The position numbers were made by a program, and so were the translations under genes. The notes beneath the pieces were generated by a model, which worked only from the letters and a program-made list of their open reading frames with translations, had not been told where the DNA came from and made no database searches. A DNA stretch of 64,000 bases from Arctopsyche grandis (Eukaryota; Arthropoda; Insecta; Trichoptera; Hydropsychidae). The stretch spans positions 26,838,501 through 26,902,500 of the forward strand of contig NC_135364.1 of NCBI RefSeq assembly GCF_051622035.1. The letters run 5' to 3'. Position 1 is the stretch's first letter; each line of letters begins with the position of its first letter. Below, in pieces: positions 601-64,000 of the stretch.

Positions 601-608
601 AATAATTA

Positions 609-959: not shown

Positions 960-994
960 AATAATTAGCATGTAATGATTTCAACTGTGTGGTC

Positions 995-4904: not shown

Positions 4905-6099
4905 CGAGATATTCGACAAGCATGAGTGCCAGCTCTAGTTTGTCGGTGCAACCGCTGGCCTTGGCACGAATCTCCTGGAGGATCTTCAACATCTTCGTCA
5001 TAGACGCCATGGAAGTTAGGTCTGTTGTTGGTTGAATGTTGGGATTGGTTGGTTGGTGGGGTTTTTTAGGGATATTTGGGATATTTGGTGAAGGAGTTTT
5101 AATGGTCGGTAGCTTTGGGAAGTTATGATCGTTAACGACCGGGATATTTTGTGGCTGCGCCACTGGGAGTTTCCAAGGGTTGGCTTTGACAATTGATGCT
5201 CGATTCTTCCTCGATTCCAGCATTTTCAGATAGCTCTGTCTTTTTGGACAGTCTTTGAAGTTAGCGGGGTGAGATCCTGAACAGCCTGAGCAGACAGCAG
5301 GGGTAACTATTCCTTTATTGCATTGTGCGGTGAGGTGAGTGCCGGCACATTTGACGCACTTGGCCTGCCGATTGCAGTTTTTCGCAGCGTGTCCATATTC
5401 TTGGCATCTGAAACATTGAGTAATATTTTGTGATTTACTAGTATATTTAACGACACTGACCTTTGTGTAACAGATGTACCGGATTTCTTTAATCTTCTTT
5501 GCCGATACCGATGGCTCGAAGAACACCAAGTATAGCTCGGTGGCGTTGCTCCTAGGCTCCTTCGTCTTCATCTGTATGACTTTGGTTACAGGGAATCCCT
5601 GTCTGATGATGTCATCTTTAATATCAGCTTCCGGCAATTTCGGCAAGCCACGTACGACACTTTTTATTTCCTTTTCCTCCTTCCTGGAAAAGGTATGGAA
5701 TTGTCGGTCTGGTGTCAATCCATTCCGAAGTTTTTTAAAGTCTTCAAGACTTTTACATTGTATCTTGACATTATTTTGACCAATGTAAGTCATTGTGAAG
5801 TCTTTTATAAACTTCTTGATCGACTCGATCATGCTGCCGTGAGTGCCAGTAGCTGTCATGATGATGGGCGGGATTCTTCCACCGCTTCTGGGGACATCGG
5901 AAACTTCCAAGAGCCCTTCAAATTTGTTTTTCTCCTGAATTTTAAATTCAGGAGCAACATCTTTCACGTTCTTTGCCGTATGTTTTGGAAACTGCCACTC
6001 GGTCTCCATCTGAGCGGTCTGAGAGCAGCCTGGTTGAGGAGCTTCGGTTGTAGTTATCAGTGTCTTCTTAATTCGCTTTTTCAGGTTGGATCCTCGCAT
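4891..6099 (-). CDS. Jockey ORF1: Gag-like protein with zinc knuckles
   Basis: About 402 residues from the ATG at 6099 (MRGSNLKKRIKKT). The frame is open further up, but the next ATG (6267) lies in the duplicated target DNA, so 6099 is the better start. There are three CCHC-type knuckles in a row: CFRCQEYGHAAKNC, CVKCAGTHLTAQC and CSGCSGSHPANFKDC, preceded by a basic region and the jockey-type Gag fold (DIIRQGFPVTKVIQMKT). It packages the element RNA (known for the family). The end (EYLDVFD, TAA) overlaps the ORF2 start by 14 nt. Confidence 0.85.
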   Translation of the reverse strand: MRGSNLKKRIKKTLITTTEAPQPGCSQTAQMETEWQFPKHTAKNVKDVAPEFKIQEKNKFEGLLEVSDVPRSGGRIPPIIMTATGTHGSMIESIKKFIKDFTMTYIGQNNVKIQCKSLEDFKKLRNGLTPDRQFHTFSRKEEKEIKSVVRGLPKLPEADIKDDIIRQGFPVTKVIQMKTKEPRSNATELYLVFFEPSVSAKKIKEIRYICYTKVSVVKYTSKSQNITQCFRCQEYGHAAKNCNRQAKCVKCAGTHLTAQCNKGIVTPAVCSGCSGSHPANFKDCPKRQSYLKMLESRKNRASIVKANPWKLPVAQPQNIPVVNDHNFPKLPTIKTPSPNIPNIPKKPHQPTNPNIQPTTDLTSMASMTKMLKILQEIRAKASGCTDKLELALMLVEYLDVFD

Positions 6100-6279
6100 G
6101 GTGCCAACATGTGTTCGTTTGGTGTTCGTTTTGTGGGGGGTGTTTGTTTTGTATGTTAAAAGGTGTGGGTTTTTTGACGGTATGGCGTATCGCTGTATTA
6201 TGAGTCCTCGCACAGAGAGTACGTCTTCGGCACGTCCGTTCTCACGAAGCGTCGAGTGACGAGTCATATTTTCGGGTTT

Positions 6280-7479
6280 CAAAATGTTGAAACGTATTAA
6301 AAATACTTTCAGTATATATTAATTACAGTTTAATATATTTTAAGTCCAATTCCGGGCAATTATAAATACAATATACCTACCGCGCATATATTAAGTGAAT
6401 TGCCTGATTGATATGTTAATTGTAACGAAACGCTCGAACGAATCGCAATCCGCTTTACACGATATCTCAATTTAAATTTCCATTTCAGACACACGGTATT
6501 GAAATATTTCATCAAATGCTTCTTAAAACGCTATATTGTTCGGTGGAAAAAACTCTGTGACAAATTTACCCCATCGGAACAAAGCCAGCAGTAAACTGCT
6601 GCGTTTTATGTTTTATCGGTTTTTTTTTTCAACCTCCCTCCTCTCATTCCCTTTGTTCTCTCTATTTTAATTCGCATTATTTTCGCTTGTTTCTACCCTT
6701 CTTTTTCAAACGTCAGCTTCGTACAAAAATCAAGTTATTAAAATACAATCTCATCCGACCGCAAACAAACCTACACACAAGTGCGATATACACATGTACT
6801 GAAACAACTAGACGATTATTATTTTGAAAATAAACACTCTGATTGAAAAATTTATATTATTTAGCTAAATAAAACAAAACTATGGAAGATAGCAATATTA
6901 CACAGTATTTTTTTAGATAATGTCACTAATTCACAATTCACAATACTTATTTGTAATGTAATATAAATCAGTTCAATTACGTCACAAAATACACGCGGAA
7001 AATCCAATCAAACACTGACCGCACCTCAGAGAAATGTTATAATTATAGAAGTGCCTTTACGAATAAATAAACTGTGTCAATAATACGCGGTACGTCTCCA
7101 TAACTACGCTACAACGCACGGAATATAATCAGGGTCATCACATATTCATTACAGAAATTAAAGTTGAGTATATATATTACAATTTGAGTATATGGTGGTA
7201 TTGGGCGTTGGTTGCCAATTCGTTTAATTTCTCAGTGGGCGGATTATTTTTATCCCCTTTTTTGTATTTGCCTGTTTTTGGGAACTCTTAAATTAACGTG
7301 TAATGTAGTTTCAACAAAAATATGTATAATTTAAAATGAACGATGTTCATATTAATTAAACTTAAATAGATTTAATTATCTTGACCGATTGATTCATTTC
7401 TTCTCCTTTTCTATTTTTCCAATATTTCCAATATTTTTATACTTTAGTGTAGTTATGTAATGTGCTATTTAATTATATT
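6280..7479. other. No supported feature
   Basis: Unique-looking AT-rich sequence downstream of the jockey duplication. No coding similarity or repeat pairing that I can see. Confidence 0.5.
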
Positions 7480-8667: not shown

Positions 8668-9061
8668 GGATGCGGTGCATCCGCTCTAAAATCGCCAGAC
8701 AAATTGAACGACAGATTAACGGACGGCTGCTTTAAATGCAATTCTCATCTTCTCGAATGATAGATTGCACACCAGATGACGGGTAACCTTTCGATGTGCA
8801 CAGATGCAATTATTAAAATGGTAATTAGTAAAATTGAGTTGGATCTTTCAGGCGAGTTTAATAAGGCAAGATTCGATAAGTTCCGAATCTTGCCTTATTA
8901 AACTCGCCAGAAAGATCCAACTCAATTTTAATAATTGCATCTGTGCACATCGAAAGGTTACTCGTCATCTGATGTGCAATCAATCATTCGAGTAAACGAG
9001 AATTGCGTTTAAAGCTGCCGGTCTGTTAATCTGGCGATTTCAGAGCGGATGCACCAAACCC
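8668..9061. mobile_element. hAT-type MITE, subfamily 2, palindromic (TIR GGTGCATCCGCTCT)
   Basis: A perfect 8-bp duplication tcattatt lies at 8660-8667 and 9062-9069. The 394-bp element is an almost complete inverted repeat centred near 8878 and would fold into one long hairpin. Confidence 0.9.
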
Positions 9062-9074
9062 TCATTATTATATT

Positions 9075-9405
9075 TTTTATTTTATTTATTGAAAAATCAA
9101 CAGACAGGATGTACAAAGATATATATAAAAAAAAGCAAATAGTAAATAAATAATATATGTAACATCCGAGTCCAATAAAAGATTTTACAAAAATGAAAAA
9201 GATAAATATAAGGAAAACAAATTAAAAAGTAAAGAATAAAGGCATGACAAAATATGTAGAACATTGCATAATTAAACTATAGTATTAAAATATTGGGAAA
9301 AGGTTATAAAATAGAATATAAGAAGAAATTGAAATTTACAAATATAAAACAAATGAAAAAGGTAAATACAAAATAAACAAATGAAAAGGAAAAGAATGAT
9401 ATATT
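9075..9405 (-). mobile_element. LINE-C/retroposon 3' fragment, right (inverted) copy
   Basis: It is the reverse complement of 7480-7834. The A-rich tail abuts the target-site duplication of the hAT MITE at 8668-9061. Together the pair forms an inverted repeat enclosing the decayed tandem array. Confidence 0.6.
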
Positions 9406-10009: not shown

Positions 10010-10090
10010 TTTTATTTTACATAGATATATACCAGGAACACCTAACAGGTAGACCCCAATGCGCCTTCCTAGACAATTAATTATAAATAT
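10010..10090 (-). mobile_element. SINE 3' tail fragment
   Basis: ataccaggaacacctaacag and ccaatgcgccttcctagaca form a degenerate SINE hairpin on the minus strand. Confidence 0.5.
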
Positions 10091-10319
10091 TCCAACATTT
10101 TTATTACATAAATCGCTGTATTTCGAGAGGCTGATGAATACGAAATTAACGGCGCACCGACATCTCAGCGCAAACCAACTTAGCGCCGACCTTTCGGCTC
10201 TAAGTTGACAATTCAGCGCATGGACTATTCAGCGCAACGACAATTCAGCGCAAAATCAATTTTTTCGATTAGTTTTAAATGCGTTTTCGAAATGATAATT
10301 TCATAAATTTGGAGTGCGA

Positions 10320-11345
10320 CTTCGCTTTATTGTCACGGATATTCTATCGGATCAGTATTGTTGAAGCGTGTGGAATTAATGGTTTACTTGGGTATCACTT
10401 TTGATCCTCAATTCACCTTTCACAACCAGATCAAGACAGTCGCTGACGTTTCCTTTCGTCGACTTGGATTTGTCTTGAGATATGCTAGATTATTCTCCAA
10501 CCCCTTGTCTTCTCGCTTGCTTTTCAACTCGCTTGTTAGAAGTAAGCTAGAGTATAATGCGATTGTGTGGAATCCGCATGAAGCAAACTACTCTCTTATT
10601 ATCGAAAAAGTGCAAAAAGCATTTCTTCGTTTTCTTTATAAGAAAGAGTATGGGTACTACCCATATCTCTATCCTACTCCTTTCCTTTTGTGCATGCTTG
10701 GGTATAATTCCCTTGAACTTCGGAGAAACTTCTCGTTAATTCGTTTCGTTCTCCAGCTATTGCGTGGTAATACGTCATGCCCGTTGTTGCTGGAACAGTT
10801 GGGACTTTATGTCCCTAATAATTATGTGCGTGGTAGACATCATCATTTGATGGTTGTACCTCCTGCTCGCACAGTTCTTTTTCGAATGGCTCCTATACCA
10901 AGAGCTATTCGACTTCTCAATGAAATCGTTGCTTGATGTGATATTTTCCACCTTGGGGAGCGTAGATTATCGGATGTTATTTTAACATATTTATCTGGTA
11001 ACCTTCGCTCATCATTTCTTTCTTAATTTGAATGTGATGAATGAGTGGAATCTTAATCTTAATCTACTCTGTTCCATTTGGGCCTCGCTGTGATTTTATT
11101 TTTTATTCATATTTTGTTGATTTATTTTACTTTTTCTTTCTCCTTTGTACATTTTATGTACTATTTTATTTGTATTATTATTTTCCTTTTGTTACTTTTT
11201 ATTATTTTTTTATTCTGCTTTCTAATTTTTCTGTTTTTTAGGCCATTAGGCCATAGGCCATTTTCTGTAGGCCATTGTGGCGCATTAGGTTCTTCCTGTA
11301 ATACCACAATGGTCCAAAAGTATTAATTAATAAATAAATAAATAA
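10320..11345 (+). mobile_element. LINE-A: second 5'-truncated copy
   Basis: It is nearly identical to 62737-63820, with ORF 10358-10936. The duplication agtgcga lies at 10313-10319 and 11346-11352. It is inserted in the left arm of a foldback element, and the uninterrupted right arm (about 11865) confirms the junction. The 3' hairpin is at about 11269-11315. Confidence 0.85.
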
Positions 11346-11374
11346 AGTGCGAATAAATTTATTTGATACTCTTT

Positions 11375-12990: not shown

Positions 12991-13120
12991 AATATTAGCC
13001 ACAGTGATATTACAGAATACTCCAACGCGTCACTGACGCCAGAAATACAAATATAAAACATAAGCATATAAAACACTCGTGTTGAACATCACTCATATAG
13101 GATAAAACCAACAATCAGTG
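12990..13120 (-). mobile_element. LINE-B 3' end fragment
   Basis: It has the hairpin ttagccacagtgatattaca ... cgcgtcactgacgcc and the downstream taaaacataagcatataaaa tract shared with the other LINE-B copies. Confidence 0.6.
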
Positions 13121-13509: not shown

Positions 13510-13995
13510 TTATTTATTTATTTTTTTACATATATACCAGAAAGGCCTTACATGTAAACCCCAATGCGCCTTCCTGGCCAATTACAAATTACAATTACAA
13601 TGCAGCATTTTTTTTATATGTCACTGAATTACGAGACACTGAAAAACTCGCAAATCAATAAGACATCTATCAAATTGTACACAAACTTATTTATTGCACA
13701 TTAATCAATCACAAATTATAGGTGACATATTGTATAGGAGGGATTTTAGCCATTTTTTTCCGGGAAGCTGAATTCAATTTTTTTTTCTCTGATTTCAACA
13801 ATGAAATCAGAGAAAATTGGCAAACTCTGATAGGAAACCTGAAGTCACTGATCTACCTGAAGTCACAAATCCAGGTATGACCAACAACATACTCTGAAAA
13901 TTTCATTTTTCACTCGAGGCCTGGCCCAAGGATCGAACCCGGCGCCTGTCGACGCTAAGCAGAAGCTTAAAGACCGAGCTATACTGCTGGCTATA
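13510..13995 (-). mobile_element. tRNA-derived SINE
   Basis: The minus-strand head has agctcggtctttaagc and gggttcgatccttgggcc. The 3' hairpin is at 13536-13580. It adjoins the 24-bp tandem array. Confidence 0.75.
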
Positions 13996-14059
13996 TAGTA
14001 TTATGCTAAAAAAAATAATATATACAAATAGTATATATTATTTTTATAGTATATATCAT

Positions 14060-14238
14060 ATAATATATACATAAATATAACATATAATATATACATAAAT
14101 ATAACATATAATATATACATAAATATAACATATAATATATACATAAATATAACATATAATATATACATAAATATAACATATAATATATACATAAATATAA
14201 CATATAATATATACATAAATATAACATATAATATATTA
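14060..14238. repeat. 24-bp tandem repeat array
   Basis: About seven nearly identical copies of acataaatataacatataa(tatat). The unit is a multiple of three, so translated frames look like repeats of eight residues, but nothing supports coding. Confidence 0.92.
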
Positions 14239-14399
14239 GATTATGTTACAAAAAAAGCACACGTGGCAAATTCATGTATATACCAAACACTGTTGCTTAC
14301 CCTCAATAAACGTACGAGAGCTAATTAACTACGCGATTGTTAGATTGAACGATCGGCGCTCGTCGACCAATCGGTGGCCAGCACTCATCGTCCAATCAG

Positions 14400-15449: not shown

Positions 15450-15690
15450 TATTTATTTATTTTATTTTTATAGTTTTGGACCATTGTAGCATTACAGGAA
15501 GAATTTAATTCGCCAGAAAATAAAACAAGAGGGAAAAAATCAATACACAGAATAAAAATCAAAAAGAGAAAAATATGATAAAAAAATGCAAAATAAAAAT
15601 GCACATAAGAAGAAAATAATAAAATGAAATAAATTCATAATAAAAAACAAGAAATAACAGAATACATAATAGGGAATGTCTTGGATCTAC
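15450..15690 (-). mobile_element. LINE-A-like 3' end, minus strand
   Basis: The hairpin half ggaccattgtagcattacag, then an AT-rich 3' UTR resembling the LINE-A tail. No ORF remains. Confidence 0.55.
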
Positions 15691-22643: not shown

Positions 22644-25600
22644 GTAATTTGAAATTATACATCAGACTTAAGTCAGTTATAATTTAATACTGACAGTAGT
22701 TTTGTATGGATAGAACCTCCAGGACTGCCGGCAGAGGTTGCTATAGAATCGGTATGGGGTCGATCAGCTCGAATTGGCTGGAGAGTGCCTTCTGGACCAC
22801 AACCAGTCGGCTACACACTACAATATACACCTCATGGTCACACTCTTTACTGGGACACCGCTCCTACTATCAACATTACAAGGTTATTAATTTTTGTATT
22901 TATTAATTAAGTAGTTGAATTTTAAATTCATGCTTCAATTGTATGATTTCAGTTTACCTGGACAGCAAAGGCACCAGAGTGAATTGACAAAACTTCAACC
23001 TGCTACATCATATGCCACTAGATTGTGCTCTGTAGGTGAATTAGACTCGAGTCCGTTCACTCGTCCTCTATTGTTCACCACTTTAGAAGAAGGTATGTAT
23101 GCTTGTGATGTTAACATTTATGCGAAGTTAATTTTTTTTAAAACACACATAATTATTATTTCTTAAAACTTCAGCTCCGGAAGAAGCTCCGAGCGGGTTG
23201 AATGTTGAACATACACTTACACCTGGAGAGCTAAGTCTCACTTGGTTACCTCCTCCTACACATTCAGTGAATGGAATTTTGCTTGGGTATGTAATCAAAG
23301 CAGTGCCCCAAATTGAAGAGCAATCAGGTATTATGGGTGAGAAATTGTACTTAATAAAACATGTATGAAGATACTATTTAATTCTATCAATATTTGTTTA
23401 GAAAAAAATGTACATACAAAAGAAATCCGAGCTGGACGTAAAGTTCCAATGCAAGCCATCTTATCAGAATTACTAAAGAGTACCAGATATGCCATAACTA
23501 TAAGTTGTTACAACAGTGCTGGGCAAGGACCTCAGTCTACGGTCGTATACCAGCAAACTCGAGGTGGAGGTATGTTTTTCAAAGCATTTTTACATTTAAT
23601 TACTAGTGGTAACCTTTTTGGTGTAATAGAAACTGCTTCCAAGATACGAAGAGTTCCTAGTAAACTAGACTTATAAATGTTTCAATTTGTATAGAAGATG
23701 GCAAATCTCCAGGATGTTTAGAAGTCTTTATTGTTCCAAGCATTACTATTTACCCTTAATGAGATTCTGTGAAGAATCTCTAGGTCTAGATAATAGTTCA
23801 CCCCCAAAATTCGTATATTTTATATTAATATATCAGCCACAGTGACATTACAGAGTACTCTAACGCGTCACTGTGGCCAGATACACAATCATAACACAAA
23901 TAAAAGTGTATAAAACATAAATATCCGTGCTCGACAATATTTATAATTGATAAAATCAACCACTGACGTTGCTCCACAACCACTCAATCAGTTCAGCGCA
24001 GCTTACAGATCAATTTTACCAGCAACCCGGTTGAGCAGATATATCCCTCTAGATCAGTGGTTCTTAACCTTTTTGGAGGTACTGAACCCCACCAGTTTCA
24101 TATGCGCATTCACCGAACCCTTCTTAATTGGAATCCTTCTTAATTTGCACCCGAATCATATGATTCAGGTGTGTCTTGACTTCCGCCGAACCCCTGAGAC
24201 TGACTCACCGAACCCCTGGGGTTCGATCGAACCCAGGCTAAGAACCACTGCTCTAGATATTGGAAACGTTTCCAACATATTTGTGCGAGCCACAGGAGGA
24301 GAAAACAAATCACGAATTCCTCCACATTTGTGGGTTTGGTGCAAACGATCGAAAAGCGCCAGACAGATTGAACCACAGATTGAACCACAAATTGAACCAC
24401 AGATTGAACCACAGATTAACTGGATGGCTGCTTTAAACGCAATTCTCGACTTCACGAATGAAAAATTGCACATCAGATGATGAGTAACCTTTCGATGTGC
24501 ACAGATACAATTATTAAAATGGTAATTATTAAAATTGAGTTGGATCTTTCTGGCGAGTTTTTAATAATTTAATAAGGAAAAATTCGGAACTAAAGTATCA
24601 AAAGCACGGAACGTATACAGGGTAGATATATCGGGACTTCGGGTAGATTTTGCTTGGTGTAAGTGCGAGCAGTGCGCACGCATAAGGTACACGTGTCATT
24701 AATCTATGGTCCAGTCTGTCTGGCGCTTTTCGATCGTTTGCACCGCATCGCACATTTGTATATGGAGAATAAATATTTGGAAGCACAATTAAAAAATCAA
24801 GATTCCTACAAATATTTAAAAAATAATAATTATTAATTACAGTACCTGAAATAGCACCATCTCCAATAGAGTGCACTAGCGTATCGCCTACTTCAATTCG
24901 TATAAATTGGCATTCACTACCTAAGCATCTTCAAGGTGGTGCAATGCTAGGGTATTACTTAATCTACACATCACCTGGTAAGTACATGAAAATTGAATAG
25001 CCCTAGAATACTTTTCAATATAAATTTCATATTATTTACAATCCATTTAAATACAGACGGTTTACAAAAGAACCATACTACAATTCATAACGAAGTGTAC
25101 TTGAAAGGTTTAAACAAATTTACCAATTACACTATTGAAATAGCTGGATTTTGCCAGCAAGGTATGGGTCCTATATCCTCTCCACTAACATGCTCAACTA
25201 CAGAAGATCGTAAGTTATTGTTTTCTTTCTAAAATATATTTCAATGAATAACTGCAATGACAAAACAATATTCCCAAAAGTTCCCAGTGCGCCGTCAAAC
25301 GTTAAAGGACTGGCAGTCTCATCGGATGCTATTGTTATAAGTTGGAAACCACCTATTCATCCTAATGGAAGACTCACTCACTACACAGTATATTTTAAAC
25401 CAACCGTGAAGTAAATATACTGTCGATGTCAATATATTGAGTAAAATTTTATATATAAAAATTGACATTTTAATTTTAGAGGAGATTCCAGCAAAAGTTA
25501 TCGGGTCCCAGTGGGTTCAAACTCAAAATTAAATACTGGCATAGGTTTGGGTACGGAAACTATGGTACAATTGTTACGACAGTTACAATCAGGACAACGC

Positions 25601-28055
25601 TATGAAGCGTGGGTAACAGCAAGCTCTGGAGCCGGAGAGGGAGATCATTCGAGGCACGTTCATACTGAACCATCCATCACAGGTTTGAACAATTGAAAAT
25701 TTTGTCTGGAATATCTGTTTATTTATTTGGTTTGTGATTTTAAACTTGGTTTTTAGTTACGGCTGGCGTTGCATCTTTGGGTGGAGAAATTTGGGCTGGA
25801 GCCGGACAACCCTTACAATTGGGGTGTTACGCTGTTGGAAATCCCCAACCGACGACCACTTGGTATCAGAATAATCACATTATAAGTCATCATCCCAGAT
25901 TCTTACACAGAAAAGATCACAGTCTACTGGTTCAAAGTAAGTTTATGTACATATTTTAAAACTGGGTTATGTTAGCTATTCAAATTTGGAGCATAAATCA
26001 TTGAATCAATATATTCATCATTTAAAATATTACAACCTGGAATATATGTATTATTATTTTTAATTTATACCAGGAAGGCTTAACAGTTAACCCCAATGCG
26101 CCTTCCTGGCCAGAAACATTGTACATTTGATACAAATATTATTAGTATTGTTACGTACACTCGGATTAGGCCGAGTAAGTGCAATCGGATTAGGCCGAGT
26201 AGCATCCCAGAGACTGTGTGACCGTTATAATTGGTTTCAAGAATTATCTTTAGACTCTAAGTGCATGCAGGCTAAACAATGGCCACCGAAGTGGCCCTTC
26301 GCAGAAGTGACCGATACCGTGGGACTGGGTGTCGTGGGAATACATATCCGGGTACATGCCTAAACAATAGGGAAGTAATCGGATGCCCTGAGAGAACTGC
26401 CCCTTATAAGGCGGAACTTAGGCGATATCAAGACATTCTGGACGGAGCACTGCCAGTGCGTGTATCTCTTTAATCACCAAGAAATGCCGTGAAACGACTT
26501 TGGCCTTTTACTTAGATCGTCCACCCACCTCTACGCAACAGTATTATACAAAGTACATATCAATTAACATCCACAGAGAAATTTACTGTCAAATTTGTAA
26601 ATTTGCAGCATTTTATACAATTTAGCGAAATTCGAGATTGCTGAAAACTCGAGATTTTACGAGAAAATGGGTAAGGTTGCCAATTTTTTGGAACTGTTTC
26701 AATGCAAATCAGATAAATTGGCAAACTATAAAGAGTCACAAATCTAATGTCTATCCAGCAGAAACCAGTGGGATTTGAATCCGTGACCACTCTGTTCAAA
26801 GCATCATATGCTAACCACTACTCAATTCTGCTGGTTATATATTGTCTTGGAGAATTAAATGAGATAGTTAAGACTATCGCTTGCTATTTCTAATCGTTAT
26901 CATATAATAAAATATATGAAACAGCAGATTTTTTACAATTATCATTAAAGACTGAACGAGATTCCCTATAATTTTTAATTTAATTGATATTTTACAGACA
27001 TAGACACAACATTAGAAGGCAATTACACATGTCATGCTCAAAATTTATTCGGATCTGACAAAGTTGAGTACTATGTAATTGTACTACCGGTTCCTGCACC
27101 ACCGATTTTACACGTCACTCCTACATCCGACTCCTTACTTCTAGAATGGGAACCTCCAAGCTTAGAATTACTCCATCCACCACCACGCACAAACAATACA
27201 ACTAAGATTTTAGGTAACTTGAGATTTATCAAATCAAAAATTTACACACATTTATCATTACTTACTTATGCTACTTATGCAGGATATTTGATAACGTGGC
27301 GAGAAACTAACGGAGAGTGGAATCCTGAAAAAGAATTGAGTCTCCACATGTACAGCTACACAATACGAGGATTACGCTGTGGCAATTCGTATGAGAGTCG
27401 TTTGATTATACGTAGCACTGCCGGAAACTCTAAGCCATCCATCGTAGGAACGAGGACTAACGGGGAAGGTATGATGATATGAAACAAAATGGTATGTCTG
27501 TTTTAGTACTAATAAATTAATATCCGGATGTTTTATGTTAAGTTCTCTTGGCGCCAACGACTAATGAATGGATTTGGACTAATGCAACGCATGTATGGCT
27601 TCAAATCGATGCTTGGGAAAAGGGAGAATGTGGTAGAATCAGCTGGAGCGTGGATTACCGACCTGTGCCTTCTAAAGCTTGGCTCCTCCCAGACACTGTA
27701 CAAGTATATTTATGTTTACAAAATGTTTAATGTTGAAAATAACTTTATATCACATAATATAGTCATATACATATTCTAAGCCCGCTTTAAAGGTCATGGA
27801 ATTTGACCCTTAAAGCCCTCAACATGAGGCCACCACCCCCCCGACGAATACAGTCCAAGAGACCCTTTCGTCGGAGAACGAGACGGTTGTTCTTGAATAT
27901 CGCACAAGAACAACCGCACATCACTGTTCTAATAAAAAAAACCACACTGTACATAACCAAGTACAAAATTAACAACAACGCATGAACACATAAAGCGCGT
28001 ATGCGGTAGGAAACAAAACCTAAGATGTGCCGTGCGAATGCACGCACACGTCAGG

Positions 28056-28086
<31 letters not shown>

Positions 28087-31000
28087 ACACACATATATAC
28101 ACACACAAACACACACACACACATACACATACACATAAACCACAAATACATACACTCACCTAAAAAGCAAACGCACACTCACTCACACACACACACATTC
28201 ACAGAATATATAACTAGTGTTATACCAGATGAAATATCATCTCATGTGTGTTGGTATATTAAGTTATTAAATAAACATAAATAAAAGAAATGTGCCGGTC
28301 CTGTGTTCGATCAGCACGCGGTCGAATTTTTTTCAAATATATTTAATTTGATATTTATATTTAATTGTTTAAGATGAAAAAAAAAATGGCAAAAACTACC
28401 TACCTACATATAAATAATATAAAACCGCAATAGAAAAATTAATGAAATAAATCAATTTTCAATAGATGACGCGTTAATGCTCAGAGACTGATTGCCCTAG
28501 AGGAGTTTTGTTAGCTGTGACGTACATATGAATGACGAATTGAAACGACTATTATATTATTATATTATATTATATTATATTATATCCTTTTTCGAATGGC
28601 TCCTATTCCAAGAGCTATTCGACTTCTTAATGAAATCGTTGCTGCCGAGACTGAATGTGATATTTTCCACCTTAGTGAACGTAAATTGTCGGAAATTACT
28701 CTAACCCATTCATCTGGTAGTCTGCGCTCATCATTGTTTTCATGATTGATTGTGATTTATGAGTGAAATTTTGATTAACTCTCTTCCATTTGGGCCTGAC
28801 AGGGATGTTTTGTATTTGTAGTTGTTTCTTACATATTTATTGAAACTGGCTGTAGGTGCAAGGCATTCCTTATGCTATATTTTATTTGATATTTTTACTT
28901 TATCTGTTATTATTAAATGCTATTTTTTATGTTTATGTATGGATGTATTTATGTTTATGTTTAATTGTTATTTTGTTTTTTTTTGTGTTATATTTTTTGA
29001 CCATTGTGGCGCTTTAGGAATTCCTGTTATGCCACAATGGTCTGTTTAGAATAAATAAATAAATAAATTATGGCGAGCGTTATCTCAGATACACAGACAG
29101 ACTGACAGACACACAGAATAGCGGTATTATTTATTATTTATTTATTTTTTTACATATATACCAGGAAGGCCTTACAAATAATGCAGCATTTACTGAAAAC
29201 TCGCAAATTAACGAGACATCTATGAATTGTACATAAATTTTATTGTACATTTTCATATTAATCAATTAAATATAAACATTAAAAAGGGCAAAAATATCAC
29301 AAAGATCGAACACGGGACCGATCTATTTATTTTAATTTATTTTTAATTAATAGCTAAATATGCCATAATCCATGTGATGATACTTCATCGGACACAACAC
29401 TAATATACAGTAATGTTCAAAATTTTGTATCAAAACTTTTGTTTTGTATTTCATTGCAAAGTTACCGTTTGTTTTTATTTGTTTATTTTATTATTATGTA
29501 CATATATAACAGAAAGTAGAAAGCAAAAAGCAGTTACTTTTGGGAGAATTTCACCCTGGACGATGGTATCAACTGAGGGTAACGGCGACAAATGCCGTCG
29601 GTGCTACTACTACCATTGTCACTGTATCAACTAAAACCACTTCAGGAGGTAATCAAACTAAATACGTTGCATCAAAAAGTATAATATTTTAGAATGGAAT
29701 TACTAACGATACAAATTATATTAATTTCCAGAGGAAATCGGACCGTACAGTGAGCCTTTAGATACTAGCATCTTGGTAATAGTATGCAGTTCAATACTGC
29801 TTTTTTTATGCATGATCATATGCATCTTTGCCGCAATACAAAAGCACAGGTATTTTCTACCTTATATAATAATGAAAACTTAACCAGCCAAGCTTTGTTG
29901 TCACTGATTCTGTAATTTTATAGACATCGGTTGCTGTGTGGATCGATCGCGGGTAGCGTATATAAAGATAGGAATAATTCTACACCGGCTTGTCCACCTC
30001 CTCCACCTCCGACTTCATCAGTTCCCACGTGTCCTCGACTGTATACATCACCAGGTCCATTGAGAAAACCCAGCAAAACCAATTCAGGTACTGTCTATTG
30101 AACTAAATCACATAGAATCAGATTATATCGATGCGGTGCAAACGATCGACAAGCGCCAGACAGACTGAACCATAGATTAACGATACGTGTACCTTATGCG
30201 TGCGCACTGCTCGCACTTACACTAAGCGAAATCTACCCGAAGTCCCGACATACCTACCCTCTATACGTACTATGCTTTCGATATTTTAGTTAGAATTTTG
30301 ACTTATTAAACTCGCCAGAAAGATCCAACTCAATTTTAATAATTACCATTTTAATAATTGCATCTGTGCACATCGGAAGGTTACTCATCATCTGATGTGC
30401 AATCTATCATTCGTGAAGTCGAGAATTGCGTTAATAGCAGCCATCCAGTTAATCTGTGGTTCAGTCTGTCTGGCTCTTGTCGATCGTTTGCACCAAACCC
30501 AGATTTTATATACATAGAATTAAGTAAAATATTTGATATTTTGCAGAGATGTTTGAAATAAGTCCTTACGCACAATTCAGCATGGGTTTCCAAACGTTCG
30601 GCCACGTTGAAAACCAAGATAGACCCGGTTATATTAAAAATAAACAAGGAATTTTTAGTACAGGTGTGTATTATTGACTTTTAACATTTGCAAAGTTTCT
30701 CCGATTCCGGAAACTTGTACAAGTACAATTAAAATCGTATAATTTGTGTCATATTTTCAGAAACAAGCTTTCAAATGGGATCAGAGTCTGAAGACAGTGA
30801 TAGCTTATCAAAAAGTGCAACCATCAAAAGTGCTCCCCGTAGTAAGTAAACGTTATGTACTTTTAAAGGTCTATTCATACCATACAACAGTTCAGGGCTA
30901 CAGCACAGCAGCTCACATAAACGACATATTTTATTCACACTATAAAGCAGCGCACGTTCAGACAAGTTTTTGCCGAGTGCAAGGTAAAATTGGCTTACAT

Positions 31001-32642
31001 TTACATTATATCGTATCGGCGAGTCGGTATTGTCACAATATGACGTTTCCGAAAATATTCACATGCGCATGCGCACTTTCATTAGGGCCGGGCCGCACCG
31101 TGCAACTTTGTCGGCCGACTAGTTGCGCGACACGAAAAAATGTATGGAAATGTGTGCGACAAACAAGTTGACGGTGTAGCATGTCCCATCTACCTGCATG
31201 CATTGGTCTGGTCGCCCTCAACCAAGTCGCTCGCAAGTCGCACGATGCGGCCCGGCCCTTAGTAAGCGTGCACTCGCTACTATGAAGTCACGTCGTGCGT
31301 GAATATTTCCAAACTGGTTTTGCTTTATACATTATTTTTATTTTTTTAACATATTAGCCACAGTGACATTACAGAGTACTCTAACGTGTCATTGTGGCCA
31401 GTCACACAATCATAACACAAAAAAAGGTATATAAAACATCCGTGCTTAACACTTATAATTGATAAAATCAACCACGGGCGTTGCTCCACAGCCACTCAAC
31501 CAGTTCAGCGCAGCTTACATTAAACAGATCAATTTCATCATCAACCCGGTTGAGCAGATATATCGCTCTAGATATTGGAGGCGTTGCCAACATATTTGTG
31601 CGAGCCACAGGAGGAGAAAACAAATCACGATTCCTCAGGTCCTTGAACTTACTAGGTGTATAAAACTCAAATTGATTAAGAACCTGAGGAATGTGTACTA
31701 ACCCATTTAATAGCTTAAAAAGTGCTTTCCCTGAAACATATATCACAATGAGACTCCATTGAGTTGAAGCCTAACGCTCCTAATAGGAATGCACTAGGAT
31801 ATAGCCAAGGATAATAACCATACAATTTCATATAAAGATATCTGAGAAACCGTTTTTGAATTCTCTCAATCTTCAATGAATGAGTCCTATGAGTAGGACT
31901 CCATATAATAGCCAGCAGCATAGCTCGGTCGTTACGCTTCTGCCTAACACCGAGAGGCGCCGGGTTCGATCCCGTGAGCTGACCTCGATTGAAAATAATT
32001 TTTCCGAGTATATCTATAGTGCTGCTAATCAGACCTGGATATGTGACTCCAGGTCGATCGTTTCCTATCAGAGTTTGCCAATTTTTTTTGGTTTCATTTT
32101 TGAAACGGTTCCCGATTAAAAATTGGCTAAAATCCTTCCTACCTACTATTTCACCACTATTTGAGTATGATTAATGTACAATAAAATTTAAGTACAATTC
32201 ATAGATATCTCGTTAATTTGCGAGTTTTCAATGTCTCGTAATTCAGCGACTTGTATAATAAAAATGCTGTATTGTTTGTAATTGGCCAGGAAGGCGCATT
32301 GGGGTTAACTTGTAAGGCCTTCCTGGTGTAAAATGTAATAAAATAAAAAATAATGGAAGAAAATTCTAGAATGCTACGTACTACGTAGAATTTTAAGCAC
32401 CATCACACATGTTATGGTGACATGTTCTGCTGTATAGTATGAATTGATTTTTTCGGCTACTGCTTGTTACGTGTGTCCATATAAAAGATACCAAAGAATA
32501 CTTTTCGTACCACAGTTGTCGGTACGAGCTGTGCTAATATGAATAAACCTTAATAATTATCAAAATCGGCCAACATTTACTAATATGCAATGATAATTTA
32601 TTTATATTTTCAGAAACATGTAGAGTGCAGTATCACAGATAA
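17379..32642 (+). CDS. Dscam-like: Dscam-like immunoglobulin-superfamily receptor, Ig5 to C-terminus (5' part outside window)
   Basis: A single-pass adhesion receptor of the Dscam family. I can join 26 exons with consistent phases: 17379-17723, 17789-17879, 19562-19946, 21633-21768, 21843-21962, 22036-22212, 22290-22434, 22495-22643, 22714-22882, 22953-23092, 23175-23327, 23402-23569, 24843-24977, 25057-25209, 25281-25410, 25480-25682, 25757-25936, 26998-27213, 27283-27468, 27543-27703, 29513-29648, 29732-29849, 29924-30087, 30547-30663, 30761-30841, 32614-32642. They encode about 1394 residues in the order Ig5-Ig9, FN3 1-4, Ig10, FN3 5-6, transmembrane helix, short cytoplasmic tail. This is exactly the Dscam order. 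The first exon starts in phase with two bases of a split codon, so earlier exons lie upstream, before the window or across a very long intron. Which insect Dscam paralogue this is cannot be decided here. The last exon (nine codons) is the least certain. Confidence 0.9.
17985..18450 (-). pseudogene. RTE-type LINE C-terminal fragment
   Basis: The minus-strand ORF 18334-18014 reads MERCMIGIMRKDRRWNTWVR, then LKWQWAGHVARI and later ERWVDEIRK and RDDWKRV. This is the familiar C-terminus of RTE-like reverse transcriptases. It is truncated and lies in the Dscam-like Ig6 intron. Confidence 0.75.
18778..19085. mobile_element. MITE with ~38-bp inverted ends
   Basis: The ends acagtgaaagcatatttcaa and ttgaaatataatttcactgt are inverted copies, continuing gtgaaaatatattttca / tagattttcac. 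The flanks are catatgtat-like and do not give a clear duplication. It lies in the Ig6 intron. Confidence 0.6.
19100..19322. mobile_element. Short Tigger-like MITE
   Basis: The ends ggtgaccatt and aatgatcacc are inverted. The interior has the ccagtactgtactggtaaaa motif shared with the copies at 41.8 and 45.0 kb. It lies in the Ig6 intron of Dscam-like. Confidence 0.5.
20165..20559. mobile_element. hAT-type MITE, subfamily 2, palindromic
   Basis: The 8-bp duplication aattattt lies at 20157-20164 and 20560-20567. It is a 395-bp near-palindrome in the opposite orientation to the 8.7-kb copy, in a Dscam-like intron. Confidence 0.88.
20601..20959. mobile_element. hAT-type MITE, subfamily 1
   Basis: It has the GGTGCAAACGATCG-type inverted ends and the gtgcgcactgctcgcactta tract. 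The flanks share tgatgt, an imperfect duplication. It lies 40 bp from the subfamily 2 copy. Confidence 0.82.
22714..25682 (+). CDS. Dscam-like: Dscam-like: fibronectin type III repeats 1-4
   Basis: Eight exons, two per FN3 repeat: FN1 22714-22882 and 22953-23092; FN2 23175-23327 and 23402-23569; FN3 24843-24977 and 25057-25209; FN4 25281-25410 and 25480-25682. Typical FN3 landmarks are visible: a Trp in strand B, Tyr-x-x-x-Tyr type spacing in strands C/C', and LKPxTxY-like motifs such as LQPATSYATR, LLKSTRYAIT and LQSGQRYEAW. Repeat boundaries begin with Pro-rich linkers (EPPGLPAEV, APEEAPSG, VPEIAPSP, LPSAPSNV). The 1.27-kb intron between FN2 and FN3 contains a LINE 3' end, a Charlie-like hAT MITE and a further hAT MITE. 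The acceptor used for 25281 (ttcccaaaag) has a poor pyrimidine tract, but it is the one that keeps the frame. Confidence 0.88.
23830..24330 (-). mobile_element. LINE-B 3' region with a nested Charlie-like MITE
   Basis: It matches 31345-31640 (ggttgagcagatatat, tgtgcgagccacaggaggag). The 3' hairpin is at about 23835-23880. The hAT MITE at 24055-24250 interrupts it, and another MITE abuts at 24331. Confidence 0.75.
24055..24250. mobile_element. Charlie-like hAT MITE
   Basis: The ends cagtggttcttaacc and ctaagaaccactg are the hAT-Charlie-type terminal motif. The 8-bp duplication ctctagat lies at 24047-24054 and 24251-24258. The interior repeats gaacccc/ccgaaccc. It is inserted in LINE-B, whose intact copy at 31.5 kb shows the empty site. 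Confidence 0.88.
24331..24750. mobile_element. hAT-type MITE, subfamily 1
   Basis: A perfect 8-bp duplication cacatttg lies at 24323-24330 and 24751-24758. The left end has a short tandem expansion of cagattgaacca/caaattgaacca units (24362-24418). Confidence 0.88.
25757..29648 (+). CDS. Dscam-like: Dscam-like: Ig10 and fibronectin type III repeats 5-6
   Basis: Ig10 is split between 25757-25936 (LGCYAVGNPQPTTTWYQ) and the start of 26998-27213 (EGNYTCHAQNLFG). FN5 follows in 26998-27213 and 27283-27468. FN6 is split between 27543-27703 (IDAWEKGECGRISWSVDYRP) and 29513-29648 (LGEFHPGRWYQLRVTATNAVG). An Ig domain between FN4 and FN5 is the diagnostic feature of Dscam proteins. The two large introns here (25937-26997 and 27704-29512) are filled by a SINE with a solo LTR inside it, a long CA microsatellite, LINE-A remains and Helitron-like ends. 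Confidence 0.86.
26050..26845 (-). mobile_element. tRNA-derived SINE split by a solo LTR
   Basis: The head (agtagtggttagcatatgat on the minus strand) is at about 26830. The 3' hairpin accaggaaggc ... gcgccttcctggcc is at 26070-26115. LTR-A occupies 26149-26540. Confidence 0.7.
26149..26540 (+). mobile_element. Solo LTR, family A, second copy
   Basis: It starts tgttacgtac and ends ctacgcaaca, with gtat at 26145-26148 and 26541-26544. It includes ccttataaggcgg. It is inserted in the middle of a minus-strand SINE in a Dscam-like intron. Confidence 0.82.
28050..28200. repeat. CA-rich microsatellite
   Basis: (CA)n with interruptions, in the Dscam-like FN6 intron. Confidence 0.9.
28212..28340 (-). 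mobile_element. Helitron-like 3' end (minus strand)
   Basis: Read on the minus strand: gatgatatttcatc, ten bases, ctag followed by T. The same gatcgaacacaggaccg tract lies upstream. It faces the plus-strand Helitron end at 29403. Confidence 0.45.
28590..29068 (+). mobile_element. LINE-A: short 3' fragment
   Basis: It matches the end of LINE-A from tttttcgaatggctcctatt onward and keeps the 3' hairpin gaccattgtggcgctttagg ... atgccacaatggtc (28998-29042) with a taaa tail. It follows a TATTA microsatellite, in the FN6 intron of Dscam-like. Confidence 0.75.
28700..29403 (+). mobile_element. Helitron-like 3' end (plus strand)
   Basis: The hairpin gatgatacttcatc, ten bases, then ctaa followed by T ends at 29403. 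Upstream gatcgaacacgggaccg resembles the 49.4-kb element. The 5' end is not defined (start given is nominal), and LINE and SINE pieces are interspersed. Confidence 0.4.
29133..29290 (-). mobile_element. SINE 3' portion
   Basis: It has ataccaggaaggccttacaa and the aaaactcgcaaattaacgag tract shared with the full SINEs. The hairpin has lost its gcgcattggg arm. Confidence 0.55.
29732..32642 (+). CDS. Dscam-like: Dscam-like: transmembrane segment and cytoplasmic tail
   Basis: Exon 29732-29849 encodes the hydrophobic membrane span (ILVIVCSSILLFLCMIICIF) followed by AAIQKHR, a basic stop-transfer end. Exon 29924-30087 has a Pro-rich stretch (ACPPPPPPTSS) that could bind SH3, WW or EVH1 domains (inference). 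Exon 30547-30663 has MFEISPYAQFSMGFQTFGH, recognisably like the ISPYA and QF-TFGH tail motifs of insect Dscams. Exon 30761-30841 is Ser/Glu-rich (MGSESEDSDSLSKSATIKS). The proposed last exon 32614-32642 adds about nine residues and a TAA. A donor inside 30841 followed by read-through would give a different C-terminus, so the last codons need transcript support. The tail, about 140 residues, is short for a Dscam. Confidence 0.8.
30129..30501. mobile_element. hAT-type MITE, subfamily 1
   Basis: The flanks gattatat (30121-30128) and gattttat (30502-30509) match at 7 of 8 positions. It has the same interior as the other copies and sits 45 bp upstream of a Dscam-like tail exon. Confidence 0.85.
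31085..31258. mobile_element. Harbinger-type MITE
   Basis: The inverted ends gggccgggccgcaccgtgc and gcacgatgcggcccggccc are flanked by TTA on both sides. It is 174 bp and CpG-rich, in the last Dscam-like intron. Confidence 0.78.
31345..31921 (-). mobile_element. LINE-B: 5'-truncated relative of LINE-A
   Basis: The minus-strand ORF 31921-31715 (LAIIWSPTHRTHSLKIERIQ, then LYGYYPWLYPSAFLLGALG) is homologous to LINE-A but divergent. The 3' end is a hairpin, gccacagtgacattacagag paired with a segment ending cattgtggcc. It lies in the last Dscam-like intron, next to a SINE. Confidence 0.75.
31905..32350 (+). mobile_element. tRNA-derived SINE
   Basis: The head has pol III-like boxes: tagctcggtcgttacgc (A box) and gggttcgatcccg (B box). 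The conserved body is ggatatgtgactccaggtcg and tcctatcagagtttgccaat. The tail is the hairpin ggccaggaaggcgcattggg ... ggccttcctgg (32284-32330) and (taaaa)n. It is the best-preserved copy. Confidence 0.82.
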
Positions 32643-39306: not shown

Positions 39307-39349
39307 GGCCTGCAGACGCCGCGACGACCGGCCGCAACTCCTCGACTCC

Positions 39350-39410
39350 TCGACTCTTCGACCGCTCGACCGCTCGACCGCTCGACCGCTCGACCGATCC
39401 ACACTACCTC
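39350..39410. repeat. 8-bp tandem repeat (GACCGCTC) in the WDR48 5' leader
   Basis: At least five near-perfect consecutive copies of cgaccgct lie just upstream of the WDR48 start. The region is GC- and CpG-rich, in contrast to the AT-rich surroundings, and is the likely promoter or 5' UTR. Confidence 0.7.
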
Positions 39411-39690
39411 CGCCCAACCGACTCCCCTGTACGTCACACGCAATGACAGCGGTCCTAACTCGCCGCACGCACGCCCATCCTCCGTTTATCGATTTTATTC
39501 AACTTGAAATATGAGAAACATTACATTTGTGGCCATTTATATGGAAACAATCACTTTGAAAGTTAAACCTTTGCCCGCGGCAATAAATATAGCTAACAAG
39601 CCCTGTACGCGGCACCTTTTTCGCGAATTTGGCAATCGAGTTTTCGACCTTAAATACAGATTTTAATATTTACTCAAGTTACCACATATG

Positions 39691-44488: not shown

Positions 44489-52984
<8,496 letters not shown>

Positions 52985-62200: not shown

Positions 62201-64000
62201 GCTGTTTGTACTTCTTCTTCATTTTTTGTCTCGTGTGTAGGCGACGAATCTAATTTACTATCTACATCTGCATAAAAATTCAATACGATCGAATCAATCA
62301 GAAGATATACATATGTAGAAGCAAAAATTATAAAATTAAACTATACCTATTGCAGTAAGCTTGCTAAGTTTAGGATCATCCAATAAATCATGCGTAGACT
62401 TGGGCTTCCCTCGGAATTCACTAGTTTGACCTTCATCTTCTTCAGCTTCCATTCCGAATGACAACAAACCAAAATTTCTGTGAAATTCAATACAAAAGAT
62501 AAATCAATGAGACTACTTTAGGTTTGAATGCTTCAATAATAACCTCCCTAAAGTACTATGCAATGCTTCATGTCTCTTGTTTGCAGACGACGTTAAATTA
62601 TTCTTTGCTGTCAAGGACGAGAGGCAAGCCTCTCTCCTACAAGCGAATATTAACGCTGTTTTAGAGTTCAGTTCCAGTTTAGGGCTTGAACTGAATACTA
62701 GTAAATGTGGCATTATGAGTTATGGACGTGCGAATTCGCTTTATTGTCACGGATATTCCATTGGATCCGTATTGTTGAAGCGTGTGGAATCTATGGTCGA
62801 CTTGGGTATCACTTTTGATCCTCAATTCACCTTTCACAACCACATCAAGACAGTCGCTGACGTTTCCTTTCGTCGACTTGGATTTGTCTTGAGATATGCT
62901 AGGTTATTCTCCAACCCCTTGTCTTCCCGCTTGCTTTTCAACTCGCTTGTTAGAAGTAAGCTAGAGTATAATGCGATTGTGTGGAATCCGCATGAAGCAA
63001 ACTACTCTCTTATTATCGAAAAAGTGCAAAAAGCATTTCTTCGTTTTCTATATAAGAAAGAGTTTGGGTATTACCCATATCTCTATCCTACTCCTTTCCT
63101 TTTGGGCATGCTTGGGTATAATTCCCTTGAACTTCGGAGTAACTTCTCTTTAATTCGTTTCGTTCTCCAGCTACTGCGTGGTAATACGTCATGCCCGTTG
63201 TTGCTGGAACAGTTGGGACTTTATGTACCTAATAATTATGTGCGTGGTAGATATCATCATTTAATGGTTGTACCTCCTGCTCACACAGTTCTTTTCGAAG
63301 AGCTATTCGACTTCTCAATTAAATCGTTGCTGCCGTCCCCGAATGCGATATTTTCCACCTCGGTGAGCGTAGATTATCGGATATTATTTTAACATATTTA
63401 TCTGGTAACCTGCGCTCATCGTTACTTTCTCAATTTGAATGTGATGTATGAGTGGAATCTTAATCTACTCTCTTCCATTTGGGCCTCGCTGTGATTTTAT
63501 TTTTTATTCATATTTTGTTTTATTTTATTTTACTTTTTCTTTCTCCTTTGTACATTTTTATGTACTATTTTAATTTTGTTCAATGTTAACAAAGAATGGG
63601 ATTTATGGATTTTATTTTTGATTTTTACACTTTTGTTCATTTTTTTTCTTCTGATCTATTATTTTCCTTTTGTTACTTTTTTTTATTATTATTTTATTTT
63701 ACCATGATTTCTGCTTTTTACTAATTTTACTTGTTTTTATATATTCATTAAATGTAGGCCATTGTGGCGCATTAGGTTCATCCTGTAATGCCACAATGGT
63801 CCAAAACTATTAATAAATAAATATTTGAATGCATCTGCAACTTACTTAACGCCTTTTTCTTTTTTCTTCTTCTTTTCAGGTAATTCTTCCTTTTTTTCTA
63901 CAACTCTAGGGACAATATCTTCAAAAGGATTGACTAAAATTTGACATCCAGTAATTTTATGTGGATATAAAGGTCGTTCATCGTGATCTGTTTCTCCTTC
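56227..64000 (-). CDS. CWC27: CWC27 spliceosome-associated cyclophilin, C-terminal portion (gene runs off the window end)
   Basis: Six exons on the minus strand: beyond 64000 to 63846, 62477-62347, 62267-62063, 61990-61796, 56606-56472 and 56392-56227. Family blocks are clear: HDERPLYPHKITGCQILVNP in the first, NFGLLSFGMEAEEDE and KSTHDLLDDPKLSKL in the second, a Lys/Glu-rich coiled segment, LPKKGSSR joined to EEFTLSLLSKFKQKL, and the end LRFEDQGQVLAKDAS ... DDWYDIYDPRNPINKRKRE with stop TAG. The N-terminal peptidyl-prolyl isomerase domain is outside the window. CWC27 is a component of activated spliceosomes (known). Intron 61795-56607 is 5.2 kb and contains PIGC, a small plus-strand ORF and transposon remains. 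The intron between 63846 and 62477 holds a LINE-A copy. Confidence 0.92.
56930..57640 (-). pseudogene. hAT transposase remnant (ZBED5/SCAND3-like)
   Basis: The minus-strand translation reads ASDDVAGLAVVLVFLLFTYD, then MEEDLLICANLYGQTTEEDI and WEKYIDICTDGARAMVGKMK, the RNase H-like block of ZBED5-type hAT transposases (TDGA motif). Further down, FWISLVESNNFDCFPALHEC and WNPFFVTAKQVG continue the fold. Stops and frame breaks make it non-functional. It is in the large CWC27 intron. Confidence 0.75.
58100..58327 (+). mobile_element. Family B LTR 3' portion
   Basis: It shares ctccttcaccgtacatacaa, an aataaagatcctctttcaaa tract and the end gacacggtcaacataccttc...ccctgcctaca with the other two family B copies. 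The left boundary is not defined; similar sequence may start near 57645. Confidence 0.55.
58553..58962. mobile_element. Candidate 410-bp element with ~20-bp terminal inverted repeats
   Basis: The left end tgttaccgagagttggcgcg and the right end cgcgccaactctcagtaaca are inverted copies with one mismatch. I could not find an exact target-site duplication. The small basic ORF fills most of the interior. Confidence 0.5.
58654..58875 (+). CDS. Small basic ORF, product unknown, inside a short terminal-inverted-repeat segment
   Basis: An ATG (MSGWRKVNHIKLLAIKRHRP...) opens 73 residues rich in Lys and Arg, then a stop TGA. It is intronless and antisense to CWC27. I do not recognise it. It has no signal peptide or hydrophobic segment. 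It lies between inverted copies of gttaccgagagttggcgcg (58553) and cgcgccaactctcagtaac (58942), so it may be carried by a transposable unit or be a chance ORF. An in-frame upstream ATG at 58624 would add ten residues. Confidence 0.4.
   Translation: MSGWRKVNHIKLLAIKRHRPQKLRKFRRAYYDYFLPSNYQNRFKFPSLTKPRKMTMFQNDRKTVGIDTESLAK
59392..60487 (-). CDS. PIGC: Phosphatidylinositol N-acetylglucosaminyltransferase subunit C (PIG-C), nested in CWC27
   Basis: About 364 residues on the minus strand of a multi-span ER membrane protein that is part of the GPI-GlcNAc transferase, first step of GPI-anchor synthesis. Matching blocks: KKLYENTGVYPDNYTDTKFL, SPILHTLTDTVSTDTIFATT, LIFSDYGISVAVVSNSLSIN, AIFGSICLASRLSTSFCAFV, and a C-terminal KDNIYGPWDEAI. 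Several hydrophobic helices are visible. An acceptor (tatgttgcag) precedes 60487 and no in-frame ATG follows before YENTG, so a short first coding exon lies upstream and was not found. The cytosolic loop after the second helix (DNTKTRDGG to RRSICNSS) is about 75 residues longer than in human PIGC and strongly charged. The gene is on the same strand as CWC27 and lies wholly in its intron. Confidence 0.9.
60488..61795 (-). other. CWC27 intron upstream of PIGC
   Basis: It should contain the missing PIGC first exon and promoter. I could not identify an ATG exon with the required phase. Confidence 0.4.
62532..63823 (+). mobile_element. LINE-A: 5'-truncated non-LTR element in a CWC27 intron
   Basis: A 9-bp duplication tttgaatgc flanks it at 62523-62531 and 63824-63832. 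The ORF to 63392 starts at the RT catalytic motif LLFADDVKLF and continues with LELNTSKCGIMSYGR and SKLEYNAIVWNPHEANYSLI. The 3' end is a hairpin (about 63757-63803) followed by taataaataaat. The element is inserted antisense to CWC27. Confidence 0.88.

Follow-up and report, generated by a model that had tools for sequence, protein, structure and literature searches.

One RNA hairpin core on family-specific stems at the 3' ends of sister LINEs and of SINEs in the trichopteran Arctopsyche grandis

The closest described systems in which long and short interspersed elements (LINEs and SINEs) share a 3' stem-loop are the stringent-type pairs of the L2 clade, such as UnaL2 of eel with its SINE and ZfL2-1 and ZfL2-2 of zebrafish. 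In these pairs the loop is read by sequence, a folded stem is required, and the stem-loop is bound by a protein segment between the endonuclease and the reverse transcriptase (RT) (PMC4176376). In monocots, too, L1 elements and SINEs have a common 3' hairpin in which stem changes are compensatory and loop nucleotides conserved (PMC3747384, reviewing Ohshima 2012). LINE/SINE hairpins with compensatory stems are thus already known, and the principle is not new. Here we describe such a hairpin from 64,000 nucleotides (nt) of Arctopsyche grandis (contig NC_135364.1, positions 26,838,501 to 26,902,500 of the forward strand), called the window below, and from the 475.7 Mb of its genome that were searched. 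In this one genome, five families of LINEs and SINE tails of four types carry one core on different stems, a natural setting in which to study what LINE enzymes read, core sequence or stem shape, and how SINEs change hosts. Two things seem to be new: the sequence family, and how many sister LINEs and SINE tails have it in a single genome; in the open-licence literature searched by hairpin sequence strings and by topic, which does not include Repbase, no paper, title or abstract opening describes this hairpin. We think, with a probability of about 85%, that one group of stringent-type LINEs uses it as 3' template-recognition element and that SINEs exploit it.

The window holds 11 hairpins of one build, at the 3' ends of LINE-A and LINE-B and at SINE-type tails (Table 1, where coordinates are window positions). 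As in the stringent-type pairs, SINEs and LINEs of the same genome share a 3' end (S tails with LINE-S, B tails with LINE-B/G), the stem-loop precedes a short-repeat, TAAA-rich tail in the LINE and SINE ends, and the LINE encodes an endonuclease and an RT. Moreover, LINE-A, LINE-S and LINE-G have the 19-position tryptophan spacing of ZfL2-2 (W325/W344). Unlike in the L2-clade pairs, the core has another sequence and its conserved part is an internal loop plus an inner stem; the tail is TAAA-like, whereas UnaL2 ends in TGTAA repeats (PMC3747384). The monocot hairpin differs in belonging to a plant L1 clade and in having about 50 nt, a conserved CGAG flank and a UCU loop (PMC3747384). Among insects, the lepidopteran PxSE5/PxLINE1 system is alike in that SINEs have the 3' tails of a partner LINE and tail exchange has been proposed, but the SINE is 5S-derived and the main text of that paper mentions neither hairpin nor stem-loop (PMC8010984).

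A sequence-only reading of the window had pointed out the hairpin at 63757 together with LINE-A, LINE-B and SINE copies, all of which are present, with coordinates that agree within a few nt. It had also described a conserved loop. The conserved core is real, but the conserved part is an internal loop and a 4-bp inner stem under an apical loop, and LINE-B keeps it too, as GCGUUAGA..UCUGUAAU. The shared core is of the type GCRUURGR...YCUGUAAU and sits atop an outer stem of 11-12 bp, whose letters are specific to the family yet pair. Across families, the internal loop has GCAU, GCGU or similar on its 5' side and UAAU, UAAG or UCAK on its 3' side; the inner stem has four pairs with a closing U-G (A, UAGG/CCUG; S, UGGG/CCUG; B, UAGA/UCUG; D, UGGA/UCUG), and the apical loop has 4-5 nt in all family forms. 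RNAalifold, applied to 17 rows picked by hand (1-3 per family), yields a common structure of -24.2 kcal/mol, -4.5 of it from covariation, with two-sided changes in 10 of 15 pairs and with five and four pair types at stem positions 6 and 7, respectively. When single sequences are folded, the outer stem is formed in 11 of 11 representatives, with z-scores of the minimum free energy (MFE) from -1.9 to -6.1.

The LINE-A copy at 62533-63823 is bracketed by the 9-nt duplication TTTGAATGC, which follows right after its tail, and the hairpin at 63757-63801 therefore marks a true 3' end. For the LINE-A copy at 10310-11346 a target-site duplication was considered and dropped, as the repeated GTGCGA occurs inside LINE-A too. 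Scanning the window with a covariance model at E up to 10 gave 22 matches: the 11 sense hairpins at E < 1e-10, seven antisense matches at the same places, a decayed LINE-A end and three weak ones. The seed of the model held all 11 hairpins, so these E-values are not independent support. The model detects no such hairpin at the A-rich 3' end of LINE-C, the unrelated LINE that served as negative control, and none of the 15 Rfam matches in the window (E up to 1) lies over the 11 hairpins.

In the whole genome, five core patterns had 1217, 3106, 86, 682 and 46 hits, more than chance would give for the three frequent ones, against 0, 1, 1, 0 and 0 for the reversed patterns. For the 1217-, 3106- and 682-hit patterns, locations cover the first 100 hits each; those of the first pattern are mainly of D type and those of the second a mix of D, S, LINE-S and LINE-G types. 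The hits of the 86-hit pattern (YWNCGC...), with which new families were sought, are by eye decayed copies of A, S or D for the most part, plus a few singletons. Applied to 75 loci (256 kb), the model gives 133 matches, counting antisense ones, with E up to 1. Core matches in prokaryote and viral contigs number 10 (one in a prokaryote collection; 3, 6 and 0 in the viral collection), which is chance-like, and none of them aligns outside model positions 9-36 of 46, so that the outer stem is absent.

Beyond the window there are three more LINE families (S, G and E) and the further SINE tail types B, D and F; full-size open frames were seen for three of the five LINE families. LINE-G is close to LINE-B (67% protein identity over 213 amino acids, aa). 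The D hairpin, with stem ACACUCGUC/GACGAGUGU, lies under a second SINE, and the E hairpin was found under a LINE frame. Five further E places were fetched: L092 matches LINE-S (36%, E 1e-10), L091 has the same frame by eye, and no LINE was seen at the other three (L093-L095). Many C-terminal matches of LINE-G have a common open frame of 298 aa, with 972 aa in one of 150 listed, and a frame-broken subfamily seems to have amplified. In addition, L066 has at about 158-1082 (minus strand) a LINE fragment some 43-55% identical to the LINE-A protein, with a nearly LINE-A-type hairpin downstream.

The sequence-only reading held, besides, that the arms pair inside each family while differing across families, and that such compensatory change points to selection on the RNA structure. 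The pairing counts and an arm-swap test, performed with one copy of each of six families and no tree, confirm the first statement: the true combination pairs at 68 of 72 positions and is the single best of 720, the next best reaching 65 and the mean 44.8. The second stands in part, since changes between families appear compensatory and overall pairing is matched by 0 of 300 nulls, but no single pair is significant. For these tests, nine family templates collected 112 hits with at most 9 differences, from which removal of five hits with more than 7 differences and merging of identical rows left 83 rows of nine family types; as the rows were picked by templates that pair, they are biased toward pairing. 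In their 11 outer pairs, 92.9% of the cells are paired, compared with 55.6% (standard deviation 7.8) in tree-based nulls (0/300 as high) and 30-47% with slid partners. The outer stem has 34 extra pair types versus 21.5 in the null (0/300 as high) and 10 pairs with two-sided change versus 7.1 (11/300 as high). The inner stem is paired at 90% versus 51% (0/300 as high), and its pair types are not in excess, 269 of 300 nulls being as high. In the 17-row alignment, 92.6% of the cells are paired versus 31-51% with slid partners; among 500 shuffles of one side, none was as high in cells paired or covariation score, 12 were as high in further pair types, and 88 in pairs with two-sided change, so that the count of 10 such pairs is ordinary.

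The covariation check that the sequence-only reading had proposed was performed with an R-scape-like test (G statistic with average product correction, substitutions re-placed on a FastTree tree, 200 nulls). Once relatedness was corrected for, none of the 16 pairs was significant in the 83 rows; the two top-scoring column pairs are true ones (6-35 and 7-34 of the 40-column alignment), but with E of 6 and 8. With so few independent lineages, this result would suit an explanation in which pairing is unselected, the families having inherited one palindromic 3' end whose stems came to differ by chance and by gene conversion between arms. We disfavour this explanation and find it extremely improbable: one copy of each of the nine family types keeps 10-11 of the 11 pairs, against fractions of 0.30-0.47 when the partners are slid, over all rows; pairing drops to the null value given above if the same changes are placed at random; and the common genome form of F (CCATAGGTGTCGCC...) restores the pair at the A-C mismatch of L035 (pairing by eye). 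Our own reading is that pairing is maintained and that independent changes are too few for per-pair significance.

As for the SINE, it had been proposed to be a parasite of this LINE clade. Its tail does come from the same LINE group, but the best match is neither LINE-A nor LINE-B; it is LINE-S, which was located by the core pattern at L089 (minus strand), where an endonuclease fragment lies upstream of a hairpin bearing the SINE-1 stem. The peptide of L089 matches 146 places, of which 13 have an open frame of exactly 979 aa, and L090, a LINE-S of this full type, ends in the SINE-1 stem. The identity of the L090 protein is 37% with LINE-A (about 960 aa aligned), 44% with LINE-G (970 aa) and 27% with LINE-C (607 aa). 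The last 80 nt of LINE-S match three of the five S-type tails of the window at 81-83% (E 9e-13 to 6e-15), while LINE-A matches none of the same five at E 1e-8. In the hairpin, three SINE copies share 34-41 of 44-45 letters with LINE-S, 27-31 with LINE-A and 23-27 with LINE-B, and for well-kept SINE-1 tails the figures are 39-41 of 45 with LINE-S versus 29-31 with LINE-A. Going by this best match, the SINE-1 tail was probably taken from LINE-S, a relative of LINE-A. Because the tail matches LINE-S, the compensatory difference between the SINE and LINE-A would in the first place be one between two LINE families, the SINE having inherited it.

LINE-A, which is young and abundant in the window, could still be the mover of SINE-1 if its enzyme read the common core whatever the stem, as the core is nearly identical (GCAUURGG..CCUGUAAK) and LINE-A has an open frame of exactly 989 aa at 18 of 142 listed places. 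We consider this unlikely, given that the SINE-1 tails are nearer LINE-S both in the hairpin and over about 80 nt, and that LINE-S has intact frames as well. LINE-S also has short copies: L089 is an internally deleted derivative in which the endonuclease fragment is joined to the 3' untranslated region, and many of the 146 places have short frames, often of 81 aa and some with one TAA. They probably form a non-autonomous family similar to the short internally deleted LINE derivatives (SIDEs) Persaeus/Zenon, which differ in being CR1 elements of Lepidoptera (PMC6740152).

Not all the SINE tails that had been assigned to one SINE belong to it. Those at 32284 and 13534-13579 are of SINE-1 or a relative, but the one at 26066-26111 has no upstream match to the SINE-1 body and the one at 49013 follows a D-type head and body, although its tail is of S type. 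SINE-1 has in its head the box-B-like GGTTCGATCCC and an A-box-like stretch, judged by eye against the consensus; ARAGORN found no tRNA in the window. The SINE bodies have a common central stretch, at about positions 109-216 of SINE-1. It precedes 10 of the 11 D hairpins, the B-like hairpins in L044 and L083 (82% over 314 nt and 80% over 207 nt to SINE-1, respectively) and the weak F-like hairpin in L032 (14.6 bits; body 81% over 57 nt). The B-like tails of L044 and L083 are closest to LINE-B (40/44 and 35/44). Related SINE bodies thus have different tails, a pattern of sequence that suggests tail swapping. Some candidates were rejected: the A hairpins of L045 and L066 and the B hairpin at 12995 were read, from distances, as separate ends beside a SINE, and L059 was wrong as a SINE-1 body with D tail, since a separate D SINE sits downstream of SINE-1.

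A further observation concerns CATAGATGTCTC, which in L035 forms the 5' arm of the F hairpin. It recurs in the bodies of S-, B- and D-tailed SINEs, ahead of the tails they now have, and at a few other sites; occurrences are at window 48973-48984 on the plus strand and about 29213-29224 on the minus strand, in L035 and in L040-L068. It occurs 35 times in 680 kb, both strands, and the reversed control 0 times; it may be what is left of an older tail, with newer tails added behind it. We also entertain, as a tentative idea that we would rather doubt than defend, that one SINE lineage repeatedly swapped hairpins among sister LINEs reading one core, with the outer stem as a family-specific address, each stem-core combination having its own LINE enzyme and SINE success tracking the active LINE. 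If this were true, stem changes would reflect a host-parasite race between LINE and SINE, not neutral drift.

The LINE proteins give a candidate reader of the hairpin. In Pfam, LINE-A (989 aa) has RVT_1 (1.4e-27) and Exo_endo_phos (6.9e-07); LINE-S (979 aa) has RVT_1 (4.1e-27), its endonuclease being recognised only via alignment to LINE-A (GDFN). The nearest solved proteins by sequence (PDB entries) are L1 ORF2p and R2-type RTs. Between endonuclease and RT there is a pair of tryptophans 19 positions apart, W339/W358 in LINE-A, W342/W361 in LINE-S and, by eye, in LINE-G (972 aa); a proline adjoins the first tryptophan in LINE-A only and is one position off in LINE-S and LINE-G. ZfL2-2 binds its 3' hairpin through the segment 324-371, with P324, W325, E341 and W344 as cTBR residues, and W344A abolishes binding; stems are exchangeable if folded, while binding and retrotransposition require the cognate loop (PMC4176376). 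The hairpin lies just before the TAAA-rich tail of each LINE RNA. By analogy, the ORF2 protein (endonuclease plus RT) probably grips it via the segment between both domains, and target-primed reverse transcription would start in the tail. In the internal loop and inner stem the protein may recognise the letters, and in the outer stem chiefly the shape, which would let outer stems drift through paired changes until they differed among LINE families as they do now; a division of labour like that of ZfL2-2 would account for a fixed core with drifting stems. SINEs carrying copies of LINE ends would borrow the enzyme, with LINE-S as putative donor for SINE-1 and the LINE-B/G lineage for another SINE; for the other tails donors were not found. 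That the protein binds the hairpin, that the hairpin is required and that a given enzyme moves a given SINE is what we infer.

The same position ahead of an A-rich tail would suit a shared signal for 3' processing, stability or termination instead of an RT handle, and a conserved structure by itself does not identify its reader. We regard such a signal as very unlikely. LINE and SINE transcripts come from different polymerases; both carry the hairpin, and the unrelated LINE-C is without it. Moreover, the SINE tails match particular LINE families, and some very short insertions are apparently little more than hairpin and tail. These are the E-type insertions L093-L095, which apparently begin at or inside the hairpin (at L094 one lies inside an antisense SINE) and fit reverse transcription running from the tail upward.

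Several results weigh against template recognition as we propose it, in addition to the null results for the stem given above. Duplications of 8 nt or more flank SINE-1 in 1 of 25 copies, the control being 4.3% (5 of 30 copies were dropped because the end motif was not located). Four of the 11 representatives (LINE-B, LINE-G, a B-tailed SINE and an E copy) take another register inside the outer stem, which makes the inner part less certain. The counterpart of E341 of ZfL2-2 is a histidine in LINE-A and LINE-S. In UnaL2, changes of the stem strongly lower retrotransposition (PMC4176376), so a stem read by shape need not hold; perhaps stems can also stay fixed instead of always drifting, as L066 has nearly the LINE-A stem despite its divergence. 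No LINE donor of the D tail was found among 10 places, six of them fetched: SINE-1 matches in four (one weak) and not in two, none matches LINE-A or LINE-S, and L097 has a trivial LINE-C match (E 0.019). For the F tails no LINE partner was seen either, in a search that went no further than copy counts.

Table 1. Elements and hairpins of the window (L numbers denote places elsewhere in the genome)
Feature	Position	Strand	Remarks
LINE-A 3' hairpin	63757..63801	+	45 nt; MFE -26.2; covariance-model match; 12-bp outer stem; internal loop GCAU/UAAU; inner stem UAGG/CCUG; loop UUCAU
LINE-A copy, 5'-truncated	62533..63823	+	91% identical to L075; C-terminal part of RT frame; TAAA-like tail
Target-site duplication TTTGAATGC, 5' copy	62523..62531	+	Read directly
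Target-site duplication TTTGAATGC, 3' copy	63824..63832	+	Directly after TAAA-like tail
LINE-A hairpin, second copy	11270..11314	+	Covariance-model match
Hairpin of diverged (older) LINE-A copy	28999..29042	+	Covariance-model match
LINE-A 3' end, decayed, 5' arm lost	15477..15514	-	12.1 bits, E 0.31
SINE-1 head and body	31911..32283	+	Box-B-like GGTTCGATCCC near start
SINE-1 tail hairpin, LINE-S type	32284..32328	+	Stem AGGAAG/CUUCCU
LINE-S-type hairpin under SINE resembling D-tailed SINE in head/body	49013..49056	+	80% over 122 nt versus L099
LINE-S-type tail hairpin, element unnamed	26066..26111	-	No SINE-1 body match upstream
Tail hairpin of SINE-1 relative	13534..13579	-	73% over whole SINE
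LINE-S-type tail hairpin, diverged	10029..10074	-	SINE-1 match limited to last 117 positions
LINE-B hairpin	31354..31399	-	Stem CCACARTGAC/GUCACUGUGG; inner stem UAGA/UCUG
LINE-B RT C-terminal region	31468..31911	-	86% DNA identity to LINE-G (L102)
LINE-B hairpin	23833..23878	-	Covariance-model match
LINE-B-type hairpin, diverged copy	12995..13040	-	LINE match not seen upstream
LINE-C, unrelated LINE, negative control	2214..6282	-	25-29% protein identity to A, S, G where alignable

The window has other contents besides these elements. A repeat family, MITE-like by eye (miniature inverted-repeat transposable element), is present in both orientations at 596-915, 8668-9077, 20154-20958, 24399-24763 and 30129-30500, and a tandem array with an AT-rich unit of 24 nt covers 14027-14260. 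Two apparent host genes lie on the minus strand: the one at 37355-39468 encodes a WD40 protein with DUF3337, which we take to be WDR48-like, and the one at 59392-60453 a GPI2-domain protein, presumably PIG-C-like.

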